Virus record (IMG/VR): IMGVR_UViG_3300034095_001665 | Location: 1 to 22,748 of that record | Strand: one strand, 5' to 3' | DNA length: 22,748 bases | Origin: a virus | In this document: positions 3,541-18,815 of the stretch, piece after piece | How the letters are laid out: each line of letters opens with the position of its first letter | Numbering within the stretch: the first letter of the stretch is position 1 | Program-made: the position numbers and the translations under genes | The notes under the pieces: model-generated | What the model saw: only the letters and a program-made list of their open reading frames with translations | Databases searched by the model: none | What the model was told of the DNA's origin: nothing

Positions 3541-3669
3541 GGTCAAAAAGACGGAAAATTTTTGAGGGGGGTATCGTAAACGAAGCCCACCCGCAAAGGG
3601 GGTGCCAGGTCCTACCCCATAAACTGTGCCAAGCCTAGGAAAAAGAATCCTTTTCTGTCGTCTGTTAGT

Positions 3670-3728
3670 CCCCCCCCCCTAGGACATAAAATGTCCGACT
3701 ATAGTCTGATAATATGCATTATCAGACT
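3670..3728. repeat. C10 tract followed by two perfect hairpins
   Basis: A run of ten C (3670-3679) is followed by GGACAT-AAA-ATGTCC (3682-3696) and, six bases later, a perfect 11-bp hairpin AGTCTGATAAT / ATTATCAGACT with a 4-base loop (3703-3728). The larger hairpin overlaps the last codons and TGA stop (3722-3724) of the small-terminase-like gene. No T tract follows on the minus strand, so it is not a standard intrinsic terminator. Candidates are a pac/cos-type recognition region, an origin element, or an mRNA 3'-end structure. Confidence 0.7.
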
Positions 3729-4816: not shown

Positions 4817-5485
4817 ATGAAAGTTCACCTAACCTTAGTCTCTTCAAACGTCAAAACCGGACCAATTCCGGTGTCAACCTCGTCGGCCGCCACATGCTCC
4901 GATGCATGCCCTTTCAAGAAAGATGGCTGCTATGCCGACTCTGGACCGCTTGCGTTGCATTGGTCAAAAGTGACAAGCGGTCAACGCGGTTTTGATTGGG
5001 CCGCTTTCTTGGGCAAGATTAAATCTTTCCCAGCTGGTCAATTGTGGCGGCATAACCAAGCCGGAGATTTGCCGGGTGTCGGCGACAATATTGACGCAAC
5101 CGCACTAGATGAACTTGCAACCGCAAACATGGGCAAACGTGGGTTTACCTACACCCACAAGCCGTTGACACCCGATAATCTGTCCGCACTACGGTCCGCC
5201 AATGAACGCGGTTTTGTTGTCAATCTGTCCGCCAACTCCGTTTCACATGCCGACACACTTGCTAAGCTCGGTCTTCCGGTTGCGGCCGTTGTCCCACAAG
5301 ACAGCGCGGACCGATTCACAACGCCGGAGGGCAACCGTGTGGTCATCTGCCCCGCACAACGCGTTGACGGTATTTCCTGCAACACCTGCCGCCTATGCGC
5401 CAAAGGAAACCGTAGATTTATTGTCGGCTTCAAACCGCATGGAACGGGTGCCAAACGCGTTCAACGCATCACAACGGCCGGTTGA
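4817..5485 (+). CDS. Conserved phage Cys-rich protein (radical-SAM-like Cys motif, function unknown)
   Basis: This 222-residue protein has a conserved-looking N-terminus (LTLVSSNVKTGPIPVSTSSA), then Cys27, Cys31 and Cys38 in ATCSDACPFKKDGCYADSG. Four more Cys follow at 178, 188, 191 and 194 (CNTCRLCAKG). The middle contains GQLWRHNQAGDLPG and FTYTHKPLTPDN. I recognise this as a recurring phage family of unknown function. The C-x3-C-x6-C-Y-A arrangement recalls the radical-SAM C-x3-C-x2-C-Y motif with an insertion, so an iron-sulphur or zinc site is likely; enzymatic activity is inference. It starts 4 bases after the membrane peptide and ends before a strong hairpin. Confidence 0.7.
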   Translation: MKVHLTLVSSNVKTGPIPVSTSSAATCSDACPFKKDGCYADSGPLALHWSKVTSGQRGFDWAAFLGKIKSFPAGQLWRHNQAGDLPGVGDNIDATALDELATANMGKRGFTYTHKPLTPDNLSALRSANERGFVVNLSANSVSHADTLAKLGLPVAAVVPQDSADRFTTPEGNRVVICPAQRVDGISCNTCRLCAKGNRRFIVGFKPHGTGAKRVQRITTAG

Positions 5486-9313: not shown

Positions 9314-10110
9314 ACCCGCCGTGCATCATCATCCCGTCAATCTTGTCGAGTTCTGCGCCGGATATTGCGGCATTGGAATTGGACTCAAGTCGGCTATCCC
9401 GCATCTACGCACTGTCGCTTACGTCGAAAGGGAAGCATACGCCGTCGCAAATCTGGCTGCGAAAATTGAAGAGGGACGACTGGATGCAGCACCTATCTGG
9501 ACGGACCTGCTCGCCTTCCCATACGCAAAATTTCGAGGACTGGTGGATATCGCGGCTGCAGGTATCCCTTGTCAGCCCCATAGCCACGCCGGACTCCGCA
9601 AAGGTGGAGCCGATGAAAGATTTCTCTTTAACGACTGGCTCATTGGACTCCAGCAAATGCGTCCGCGCTGCATCCTCATCGAAAACGTCGAAGGCTTGCT
9701 TACCAGTCTTATGCCAGACGGAACTCTTTGCATCCGATGGACGCTGGAGAGATTGGAGCGCATGGGCTACCGCGTTGCGAGCGGACTATTCAGCGCGGAA
9801 GAATGCGGCGCGCCACATATTAGGAAGCGGGTCTGGATTCTGGCCTACGCCGACAGCGAACGAGGACAAGGATCAGAATGCTTCCTTCGCGACGCTTGCG
9901 CGACTGGACCGGGGGGGGCGTATCTTGCGACGGATAGCGACATTGACGATGCGTGGAAATGGCCCAGTGGACCAAATGAACCTCAGCGATGGTGGGAACC
10001 GGCGCGAACGCTTGAATCCAGCTTGGGTCGAAAGTCTGCTCGGTCTGCCGTTATCTTGGACCGCTTGCGACTCCTCGGAAACGGAGTCGTTCCCGCAACC
10101 GCCAATCTAG
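9310..10110 (+). CDS. Overlapping ORF on the methyltransferase gene (WPTPTA/LNPxWVExL-type phage protein)
   Basis: A 266-residue open frame, offset from the methyltransferase frame, covers nearly all of that gene. GTG 9310 overlaps the previous stop in the GTGA geometry used across this window. It is Ser/Thr/Arg-rich. It carries GFWPTPTANEDKD at about residues 176-188 and RLNPAWVESLLGLPLSW near the end, followed by SETESFPQPP. These match motifs I recall from phage proteins of unknown function found near C5 methyltransferases. The motif DNA is also the methyltransferase's own motif DNA in another frame (LAYADSE; LGNGVVPATA), so conservation could be imposed by the enzyme. Expression is unproven. 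Confidence 0.4.
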   Translation: MNPPCIIIPSILSSSAPDIAALELDSSRLSRIYALSLTSKGKHTPSQIWLRKLKRDDWMQHLSGRTCSPSHTQNFEDWWISRLQVSLVSPIATPDSAKVEPMKDFSLTTGSLDSSKCVRAASSSKTSKACLPVLCQTELFASDGRWRDWSAWATALRADYSARKNAARHILGSGSGFWPTPTANEDKDQNASFATLARLDRGGRILRRIATLTMRGNGPVDQMNLSDGGNRRERLNPAWVESLLGLPLSWTACDSSETESFPQPPI

Positions 10111-16793: not shown

Positions 16794-17870
16794 ATGAATC
16801 TAAGAGAATACCAACAAAAAGCAGTAGAGTGGGCCAAAACTAGCGATGGACTGATCATCGCCCCCGCCGGTAGCGGTAAGACATGGATTGCCGCGAGCAT
16901 CATCAAGCATTACGCCACGCTGAATCCAACGTGGACGTTCGGATGGACAGCGCCAACGATTGAAACCTGCCAGCAAGGAAGAGTTTCCTTAAGGGTGGCT
17001 GGTGTGCCGGACGAGAAGGTGGATATCCGGTGTCCGCATGAATCTGTGGACTTCAGTAAGAAGCAGCTTCTGATCGTCGATGAGGCAAAAAGGAGCGCAG
17101 CGAAAGTCCTGAAAGGCATCATCGAGTCCTGTAACGGACTGCGTTATGGCTTCGACGCCACGCCGTGGGGCGACGATCCAGACCGGAACACGGTAACACG
17201 AACGCTCTTCCACAACCGCACCTACGAAATCAAGCGCAGCGACATTGGCGATTCATTGGCCGACGCTTACCTCGAAATCAGCCACGCCACGGACCTTAAC
17301 ATCCAGCAGAAGATCGACGACAACATCGACCGGCTCTTCAACACTCGCGTCAAGTACATGCGGATCAGGGAGGATGAACTCAAACGGATGTGCGCTTGGG
17401 AATCGATTGTCGATATCGGCATCTGCCAGAACCGCGAGCGCAACAACTACGCCATCAATTACGCGGTCGAACATCTCGACATGCAGACCCTCATCCTCAT
17501 TCCGCGCATCACGCTGGGCGAGGACTACGAGAAACGGATTCCGAATTCTCTGCTCGTTCATTCCAAGATTGCGAAGAAGCAGCGCAAAGCCGCGATGGAA
17601 GAATTCAAGGCTGGTAACCTGCGGACTATGATCGCCACAAGCTTGGCCGACGAAGGATTGGATCTGCCCAACGTCGAACTGCTCATCATGGTCAGCGGCG
17701 GTCGGTCGTCGCAGAAGACTATCCAACGAGCGAGTCGGGCATTGCGGAAAACAGAAACCAAGAACTGCGCGACAATCGTAGATTTCTCTGACAAATTCCA
17801 TCCCATCGGAGCGTTCCATGCTAAGAAGCGCATGACCTGCTACCGTGAACTAGGTTGTATTTTCCAATGA
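16794..17870 (+). CDS. SF2 DEAD/DEAH-like helicase (DEAK variant)
   Basis: This is 358 residues. Walker A, APAGSGKT, is at 23-30; motif II reads VDEAK at about 95-99 instead of DEAH/DEAD; motif III-like FDATPWGDD is at 120-128; motif VI-like QRASRALRKTETK is near 310-322. Between lie RecA-fold helices including the LVHSKIAKKQRKAAMEEFKA segment typical of domain 2. SF2 enzymes of this kind translocate on or unwind nucleic acids with ATP. The start uses an AAAATT leader, and the stop overlaps the SSB-like gene, suggesting joint work at replication or recombination forks. Confidence 0.8.
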   Translation: MNLREYQQKAVEWAKTSDGLIIAPAGSGKTWIAASIIKHYATLNPTWTFGWTAPTIETCQQGRVSLRVAGVPDEKVDIRCPHESVDFSKKQLLIVDEAKRSAAKVLKGIIESCNGLRYGFDATPWGDDPDRNTVTRTLFHNRTYEIKRSDIGDSLADAYLEISHATDLNIQQKIDDNIDRLFNTRVKYMRIREDELKRMCAWESIVDIGICQNRERNNYAINYAVEHLDMQTLILIPRITLGEDYEKRIPNSLLVHSKIAKKQRKAAMEEFKAGNLRTMIATSLADEGLDLPNVELLIMVSGGRSSQKTIQRASRALRKTETKNCATIVDFSDKFHPIGAFHAKKRMTCYRELGCIFQ

Positions 17871-18231: not shown

Positions 18232-18254
18232 TTGAGCGAATGAAAAATCCCCAC

Positions 18255-18815
18255 ATGAACAAAAAAATTATCCATCTCCTATCTGGCGGACTCGACAGCG
18301 TAACGATGATGTACGACCTATTAAATCAGGGGCATCAACTGCATGCGCTGATGTTCGATTACAAGCAGCGTCACAGCCAAGAATTGCTGTGCGCCAAGTA
18401 TCATGCAAAGCTTGCTGGAGTAGTCTTCACTGTTGTGGATCTTCCTCCGCTTGGTGGACTTACCGAGCAATCGTGGGTTGTCCCGAATCGCAACGCCATC
18501 TTCCTCAGCGTTGCCGTCAACTTCGCTTGTGAGTCTGGATCTGACACCGTGACGATTGGATGCAACAAAGACGATGAAGAGCAATTCCCAGACTGTCGGC
18601 GTGGATTCATTGACGCTATGCAAAAGACAGTCAACGAATCCGGCTACAGCGTCGAAATATGCGCTCCGTACATCGACAAGCGCAAATGGGAGATTGCCGG
18701 AATCGCCAGAGACATGGGCATCAACGGCTCAAACATCTGGACTTGCTACAACGGAGGATTGAAACCCTGCGGAGTCTGTCCCGCTTGCTTGAAGCTCAAC
18801 GATTCCGGCTTATGA
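18255..18815 (+). CDS. queC: QueC, 7-cyano-7-deazaguanine (preQ0) synthase
   Basis: This is 186 residues from ATG 18255; the in-frame ATG at 18240 is possible, but 18255 has the TCCCCACATGAA context also found at 16521. SGGLDS at 10-15 is the PP-loop ATP site. VVPNRNAIFLSVAV and TIGCNKDDEEQFPDCR are diagnostic QueC segments. A zinc site is formed by four Cys in IWTCYNGGLKPCGVCPACL. QueC converts carboxy-deazaguanine to preQ0 with ATP and ammonia. In phages this feeds deazaguanine insertion into DNA. Its stop overlaps the DpdA-like gene, making that use likely. Confidence 0.9.
   Translation: MNKKIIHLLSGGLDSVTMMYDLLNQGHQLHALMFDYKQRHSQELLCAKYHAKLAGVVFTVVDLPPLGGLTEQSWVVPNRNAIFLSVAVNFACESGSDTVTIGCNKDDEEQFPDCRRGFIDAMQKTVNESGYSVEICAPYIDKRKWEIAGIARDMGINGSNIWTCYNGGLKPCGVCPACLKLNDSGL

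Follow-up and report, generated by a model that had tools for sequence, protein, structure and literature searches.

What is the role of a locus in an uncultured virus where a small-terminase-like gene ends and two perfect hairpins and a run of ten cytosines crowd around the stop codon? The locus lies in a 22.7-kb virus contig, here called the window (the whole stretch of DNA that was analyzed). Its minus strand carries, in order of transcription, the gene for an HTH protein (P0001), a hairpin-bearing gap of 180 bp, the gene for a nuclease-like protein (P0002), and the gene for a 412-aa protein (Table 1). A first-pass annotation had proposed the hairpins and the C10 run as a packaging signal. 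The neighborhood it singled out stands, with a gene resembling that of a small terminase (TerS) and a probable site just downstream, but the hairpins and C10 do not hold up as the element itself. Instead, the gap is probably a cos-like site at which an uncultured phage group begins to package its DNA, and its essential part would be a 35-base core located closer to P0002.

Table 1. Features of the terminase-nuclease region, in window coordinates.
Feature	Position	Strand	Basis or remark
Probable major capsid protein, 412 aa	1567..2805	-	Sequence character and position
P0002, PD-(D/E)XK nuclease-like, DUF5843, 178 aa	3004..3540	-	PF19161
Invariant core GGCTTCGTTTACGATACCCCCCTCAAAAATTTTCC, proposed cos-like packaging site	3553..3587	-	35 bases; conservation
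17-mer CCCCCCTCAAAAATTTT, common to unrelated phages beside terminase genes	3555..3571	-	Pattern search
C-run / T3-4 / G-run element, here CCCCCTTTGCGGG	3590..3602	-	Alignments
Variable module, two TGGCA boxes	3603..3632	-	113 distinct versions in 150 relatives
Conserved AAAAGGATTSTTTT block	3641..3654	-	Alignments A2, A3
C10 (G10 on - strand), private to window contig	3670..3679		Relatives have 2-5 G
Second hairpin, 6 bp, GGACAT-AAA-ATGTCC (dyad GGACA-N5-TGTCC)	3682..3696		
11-bp perfect palindrome, 4-nt loop, across P0001 stop codon	3703..3728		Arms 3703-3713/3718-3728
P0001, HTH protein, small-terminase-like, 151 aa	3722..4177	-	Weak profile matches

Among phage records P0001 has no relative, and the same holds for the 412-aa protein and for the region as a whole; the group therefore appears to be uncultured. 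The 412-aa protein is probably the major capsid protein, judging by its sequence and its place in the gene order; it is ~90% identical among relatives and has no family match in PHROGs, Pfam, or phage records. No gene for a large terminase subunit (TerL) was found inside the 22.7-kb window. TerL is present in related contigs of 43-48 kb, in a block that by inspection also holds a probable portal gene. There it lies far from P0001 and on the opposite strand, which counts against the packaging reading. Elsewhere in the window, a QueC-like gene (18240-18815, + strand; PF06508, 2e-45) suggests that the phage may use DNA or RNA modification of the 7-deazaguanine type (queuosine pathway). The DNA helicase of the relative G005 (oriented coordinates 42188-44305) has an intein-like insertion of ~345 aa that is absent from the window's 358-aa version (16794-17870).

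P0001 is likely to be the TerS of this group, an assignment drawn from its context. Its match to the TerS family phrog_1206 is weak (E=0.0023), and among 56 members of the P0001 family there are further weak TerS matches, to phrog_2606 (3e-5), phrog_51, and phrog_509. Other HTH families are weakly matched as well, and no sequence match was found in the PDB. The structural model, of low confidence (pLDDT 62.5), predicts an HTH followed by long helices, and its top Foldseek matches are chains of 2AO9 at a non-significant E=0.26. The 2AO9 protein is counted among TerS nonamers (PMC7672466). That the TerS likeness comes from weak profiles and a non-significant fold match also counts against the packaging reading.

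The downstream neighbor, P0002, is clearly a PD-(D/E)XK-type nuclease by its motif, as even homologues of ~30% identity retain residues E58, D83, and D96-x-K98. The fold is suggestive only, since the best E value is 0.009, although all 18 of the top 18 Foldseek matches to the predicted structure are restriction or Hjc-type nucleases (NaeI, Hjc, HincII, DpnI).

The hairpins are real and statistically striking. An 11-bp hairpin had been judged rarer than one per window by chance, and this was borne out: one was observed against 0.017 expected, counting perfect stems of at least 11 bp with loops of 3-8 nt in dinucleotide-shuffled windows. Runs of C10 or G10 have an expectation of 0 in the shuffles, and the sole other C/G homopolymer of at least seven bases in the window is a G8 run at 9911. 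As single-stranded DNA, the 101-nt hairpin region folds better than all 200 of 200 shuffles (z = -7.3). Other points made at first sight were also correct, namely that the palindrome overlaps the stop codon of the HTH gene (3722-3724, on the minus strand), that the 6-bp hairpin and C10 sit beside it, and that a terminator T tract is missing after the stem.

A different picture emerges from the comparison with relatives that the first-pass annotation had suggested. From 80 loci encoding P0001 relatives, together with many more loci found by pattern, 178 distinct versions of the gap were assembled, many of them through searches keyed on the core or half of it. Neither hairpins nor C10 proved to be family-wide. 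The palindrome is present in 23 of the 178 and missing from the other 155, while the ten-base run occurs in a single version, that of the window. Since other relatives have 2-5 G at the same place, the run has either expanded in the window alone or arisen as an assembly artefact, and it was rejected as a functional tract. Relatives without the palindrome carry a different, nearly invariant array in its place (CTNAT-N7-ATNAG-N5-CTNAT). Its half-sites CTNAT, ATNAG, and CTNAT (alignment A3, columns 54-80) have a free middle base and resemble a protein-binding array.

Within the palindrome class (17 aligned sequences), the inner arms of the palindrome are invariant, as are the arms of the GGACA-N5-TGTCC dyad, the spacer of which varies. 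Some outer pairs of the palindrome are broken where the coding arm changes, and not one stem pair has changed on both sides. With no covariation and no Rfam match, a conserved RNA structure was rejected. For the hairpins alone, a rather doubtful explanation is that the palindrome has no part in packaging and instead terminates transcription of the terminase gene or stabilizes its mRNA as a 3′ hairpin. The stem is stable and extends, in the sense orientation, across the stop codon, but it is absent from most relatives and does not covary. An intrinsic terminator in particular was rejected, as no T run follows the stem and the terminator scan made no call there. A hairpin of this kind would be compatible with the core serving as the packaging site.

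The core tells a more consistent story. It lies on the minus strand, with the palindrome ~85-120 bp upstream of it, and comprises CTTCGTTTACGATA and then CCCCCCTCAAAAATTTT, in which an A/T tract comes immediately after a C-run. Because many gap versions came from core-keyed searches, its conservation was counted only in loci found by protein. With P0001 as the sole criterion, 58 distinct loci were selected, and 56 of them carry GGCTTCGTTTACGATACCCCCCTCAAAAATTTTCC without a mismatch; in the same comparison, third codon positions of an invariant stretch of the P0001 gene are only 0.50 identical. Four further contigs have C5 in place of C6. The core is also single-copy, with one occurrence in each of 14 of 14 records searched (three mismatches allowed), and TCAAAAATTTT, a part of it, occurs once in each of five genomes.

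Several other lines of evidence on the core were tried and set aside. A dyad within it, at 9 of 15 pairs, equals the usual maximum for a 200-nt stretch; it is thus no better than chance and was rejected as a cosN signature. Contig ends near the core were rejected as evidence of a cut, being scattered 42-158 bp upstream with no single-base pile-up; only one contig begins exactly at the first C of the core. Both results count against the packaging reading. Weak matches of the A/T half to Listeria and gut-phage sequences were likewise discarded (the Listeria ones resemble part of a coding gene by inspection), and IKe/Erwinia filamentous phage matches (E=4) were taken as chance. One contig that carries the core and a 90%-identical P0002 (L235, CAILVZ010000353.1) is binned with an Akkermansiaceae MAG, a weak hint of a verrucomicrobial host, or else a binning error.

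If the core is where the DNA is cut, the hairpins could be the part to which the terminase binds, in the manner of cosB. This is a sub-version of the packaging reading, with which its probability overlaps, and it is unlikely. The hairpins do adjoin the core, and the replacement of the palindrome by another repeated array in other relatives is what binding arrays might show. Against it stand the 155 versions without a palindrome and the pattern of variation in P0001. The HTH of this protein (residues 1-55) is diverse, at ~52% identity among relatives versus 82-90% in alignment columns 81-140. In permutation and Mantel-type tests, this diversity showed no correlation with the palindrome, the TGGCA module, or adjacent DNA modules, and coevolution of the HTH with palindrome or TGGCA module was rejected. 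The lack of covariation with flanking modules is counted against the packaging reading in general. Of the parts of P0001, only the C-terminal tail shows a clear association with palindrome class (columns 141-169; 0 of 500 permutations), while columns 1-20 and 121-140 gave permutation counts of 11 and 8 of 500 with identity differences of only 0.02-0.03. The data favor hairpins that are not essential in most of the family.

The part of the core that reaches farthest is its 17-mer. A search for CCCCCCTCAAAAATTTT preceded by any base but A, and so outside the main form, returned 16 contigs versus 3 for a reversed-pattern control. The 16 include relatives of the window and members of separate lineages, and in four of the latter lineages the 17-mer adjoins TerS or TerL genes. 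For instance, Streptococcus phage Javan207, a prophage of Streptococcus equinus JB1, has the exact CCCCCCTCAAAAATTTT upstream of HNH, TerS (phrog_2343, 3e-31), and an annotated TerL, and contig L224 shares the same surrounding sequence. In L226 and L408, a TerS-like gene begins 130 bp downstream of the 17-mer and is followed by TerL (in L408, phrog_51 at 4e-4 and phrog_38 at 8e-98, respectively). TerL lies ~1.8 kb downstream of the 17-mer in L219, L223, and L409 (phrog_9, 1e-9, in the latter two), and a Terminase_2 TerS gene (PF03592, above cut-off) ends ~60 bp upstream of it in L227. A further lineage comprises L220, L222, L229, L231, and L232. A small HNH-type gene lies within ~0.8 kb of the 17-mer in L220, L222, L231, and L232, and is profile-confirmed in the first two and in the record of L231; in the record of L229, TerL is ~5.6 kb away, which counts against the packaging reading. 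As a separate observation, a DUF7227/GP88-family gene occurs within ~0.2-1.5 kb of the 17-mer in three different phage lineages; the contigs concerned are the window (4817-5485, + strand), L225, L220, L222, L407, L219, and L223.

In one sub-lineage (L221 and L225), the 412-aa protein is 89% identical and P0002 is absent from the records. The 17-mer is kept there, in L225 along with the TerS-like gene, and the element is therefore not tied to the nuclease gene. Overall, the linkage of the 17-mer to terminase genes is suggestive of a packaging role. It does not amount to formal proof, as the independent lineages are few and in any phage genome considerable space is taken up by terminase genes.

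The same observations bear on the two remaining alternatives. It is quite improbable that the core acts as a replication origin, or as another replication signal that just happens to neighbor the terminase gene. An origin would fit a single-copy, intergenic element with an A/T tract beside dyads, but not the recurrence of the 17-mer beside the terminase genes of several unrelated phages, and a GC-skew switch at the core was not consistent among four genomes. Least probable of all is a promoter, leader, or operator controlling the nuclease-capsid operon at the level of transcription or RNA: P0002 and the probable capsid gene do follow immediately after the core, and the gap RNA folds somewhat better than shuffles (z = -2.9), but the element is not repeated before other operons, has no sigma-70 or Rfam match, and its 17-mer is kept without P0002 and in unrelated phages with other downstream genes.

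For the packaging reading, an analogous architecture is found in phage HK97. The minimal site of HK97 TerS, which is experimentally defined, covers 15 bp with an A-tract among them and begins 15 bp away from the cut (PMC11331095). On the left end this site reads CTAACCCGATTTTTT, a C-run and then an A/T tract. The HK97 site adjoins TerS and the proposed site of the window adjoins a TerS-like gene, with a nuclease gene close by in each case. The likeness is one of architecture, with no homology of the site sequences beyond the C-run and A/T tract, and there are differences. HK97 has an HNH protein where the window has a PD-(D/E)XK protein, and its site is upstream of TerS whereas the proposed site of the window is downstream of the TerS-like gene. 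By this analogy, we infer that the terminase would recognize the C-run/A-T tract of the core and cut nearby, most plausibly within CTTCGTTTACGATA. The hairpins and C10 would then form a lineage-specific flank of the site where the terminase gene ends, and may be an accessory protein-binding dyad or passengers of the gene end.

Two other phages invite comparison. Javan207 shares the exact 17-mer, placed before HNH-TerS-TerL, but differs in flanking bases, gene order, and host, and its record has no mapped cos site. Pseudomonas phage PaP3 (~45 kb) has a 20-nt cos containing GGCCCCTTT (PMC3488191), which resembles a GGCCCCCTTT element in some relatives of the window. About 2 kb separate the PaP3 TerS from the end, TerL is nearby, and the gene order differs; identity with its cos was rejected since the exact PaP3 cos is absent from all other loci compared.

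A broader proposal can be put forward tentatively, and with more doubt than confidence: CCCCCCTCAAAAATTTT may be an undescribed, widespread terminase recognition or cleavage word, common to otherwise unrelated tailed phages. These would include the uncultured group of the window, the Streptococcus phage, and phages with large terminases of the phrog_2, phrog_9, and phrog_38 types. An exact-string search of open-licence papers did not find the 17-mer. If the word is indeed shared, the ends of Javan207 particle DNA would be expected close to ATCCCCCCCTCAAAAATTTTCG.

Packaging sites are poorly conserved, and finding them from sequence alone is for that reason normally hard. If the packaging reading is right, footprinting should not start with the conspicuous hairpins. 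The core would give a large uncultured phage group a packaging site that can be tested directly, as well as a sequence word with which packaging sites could be located in unrelated phage genomes from sequence alone.
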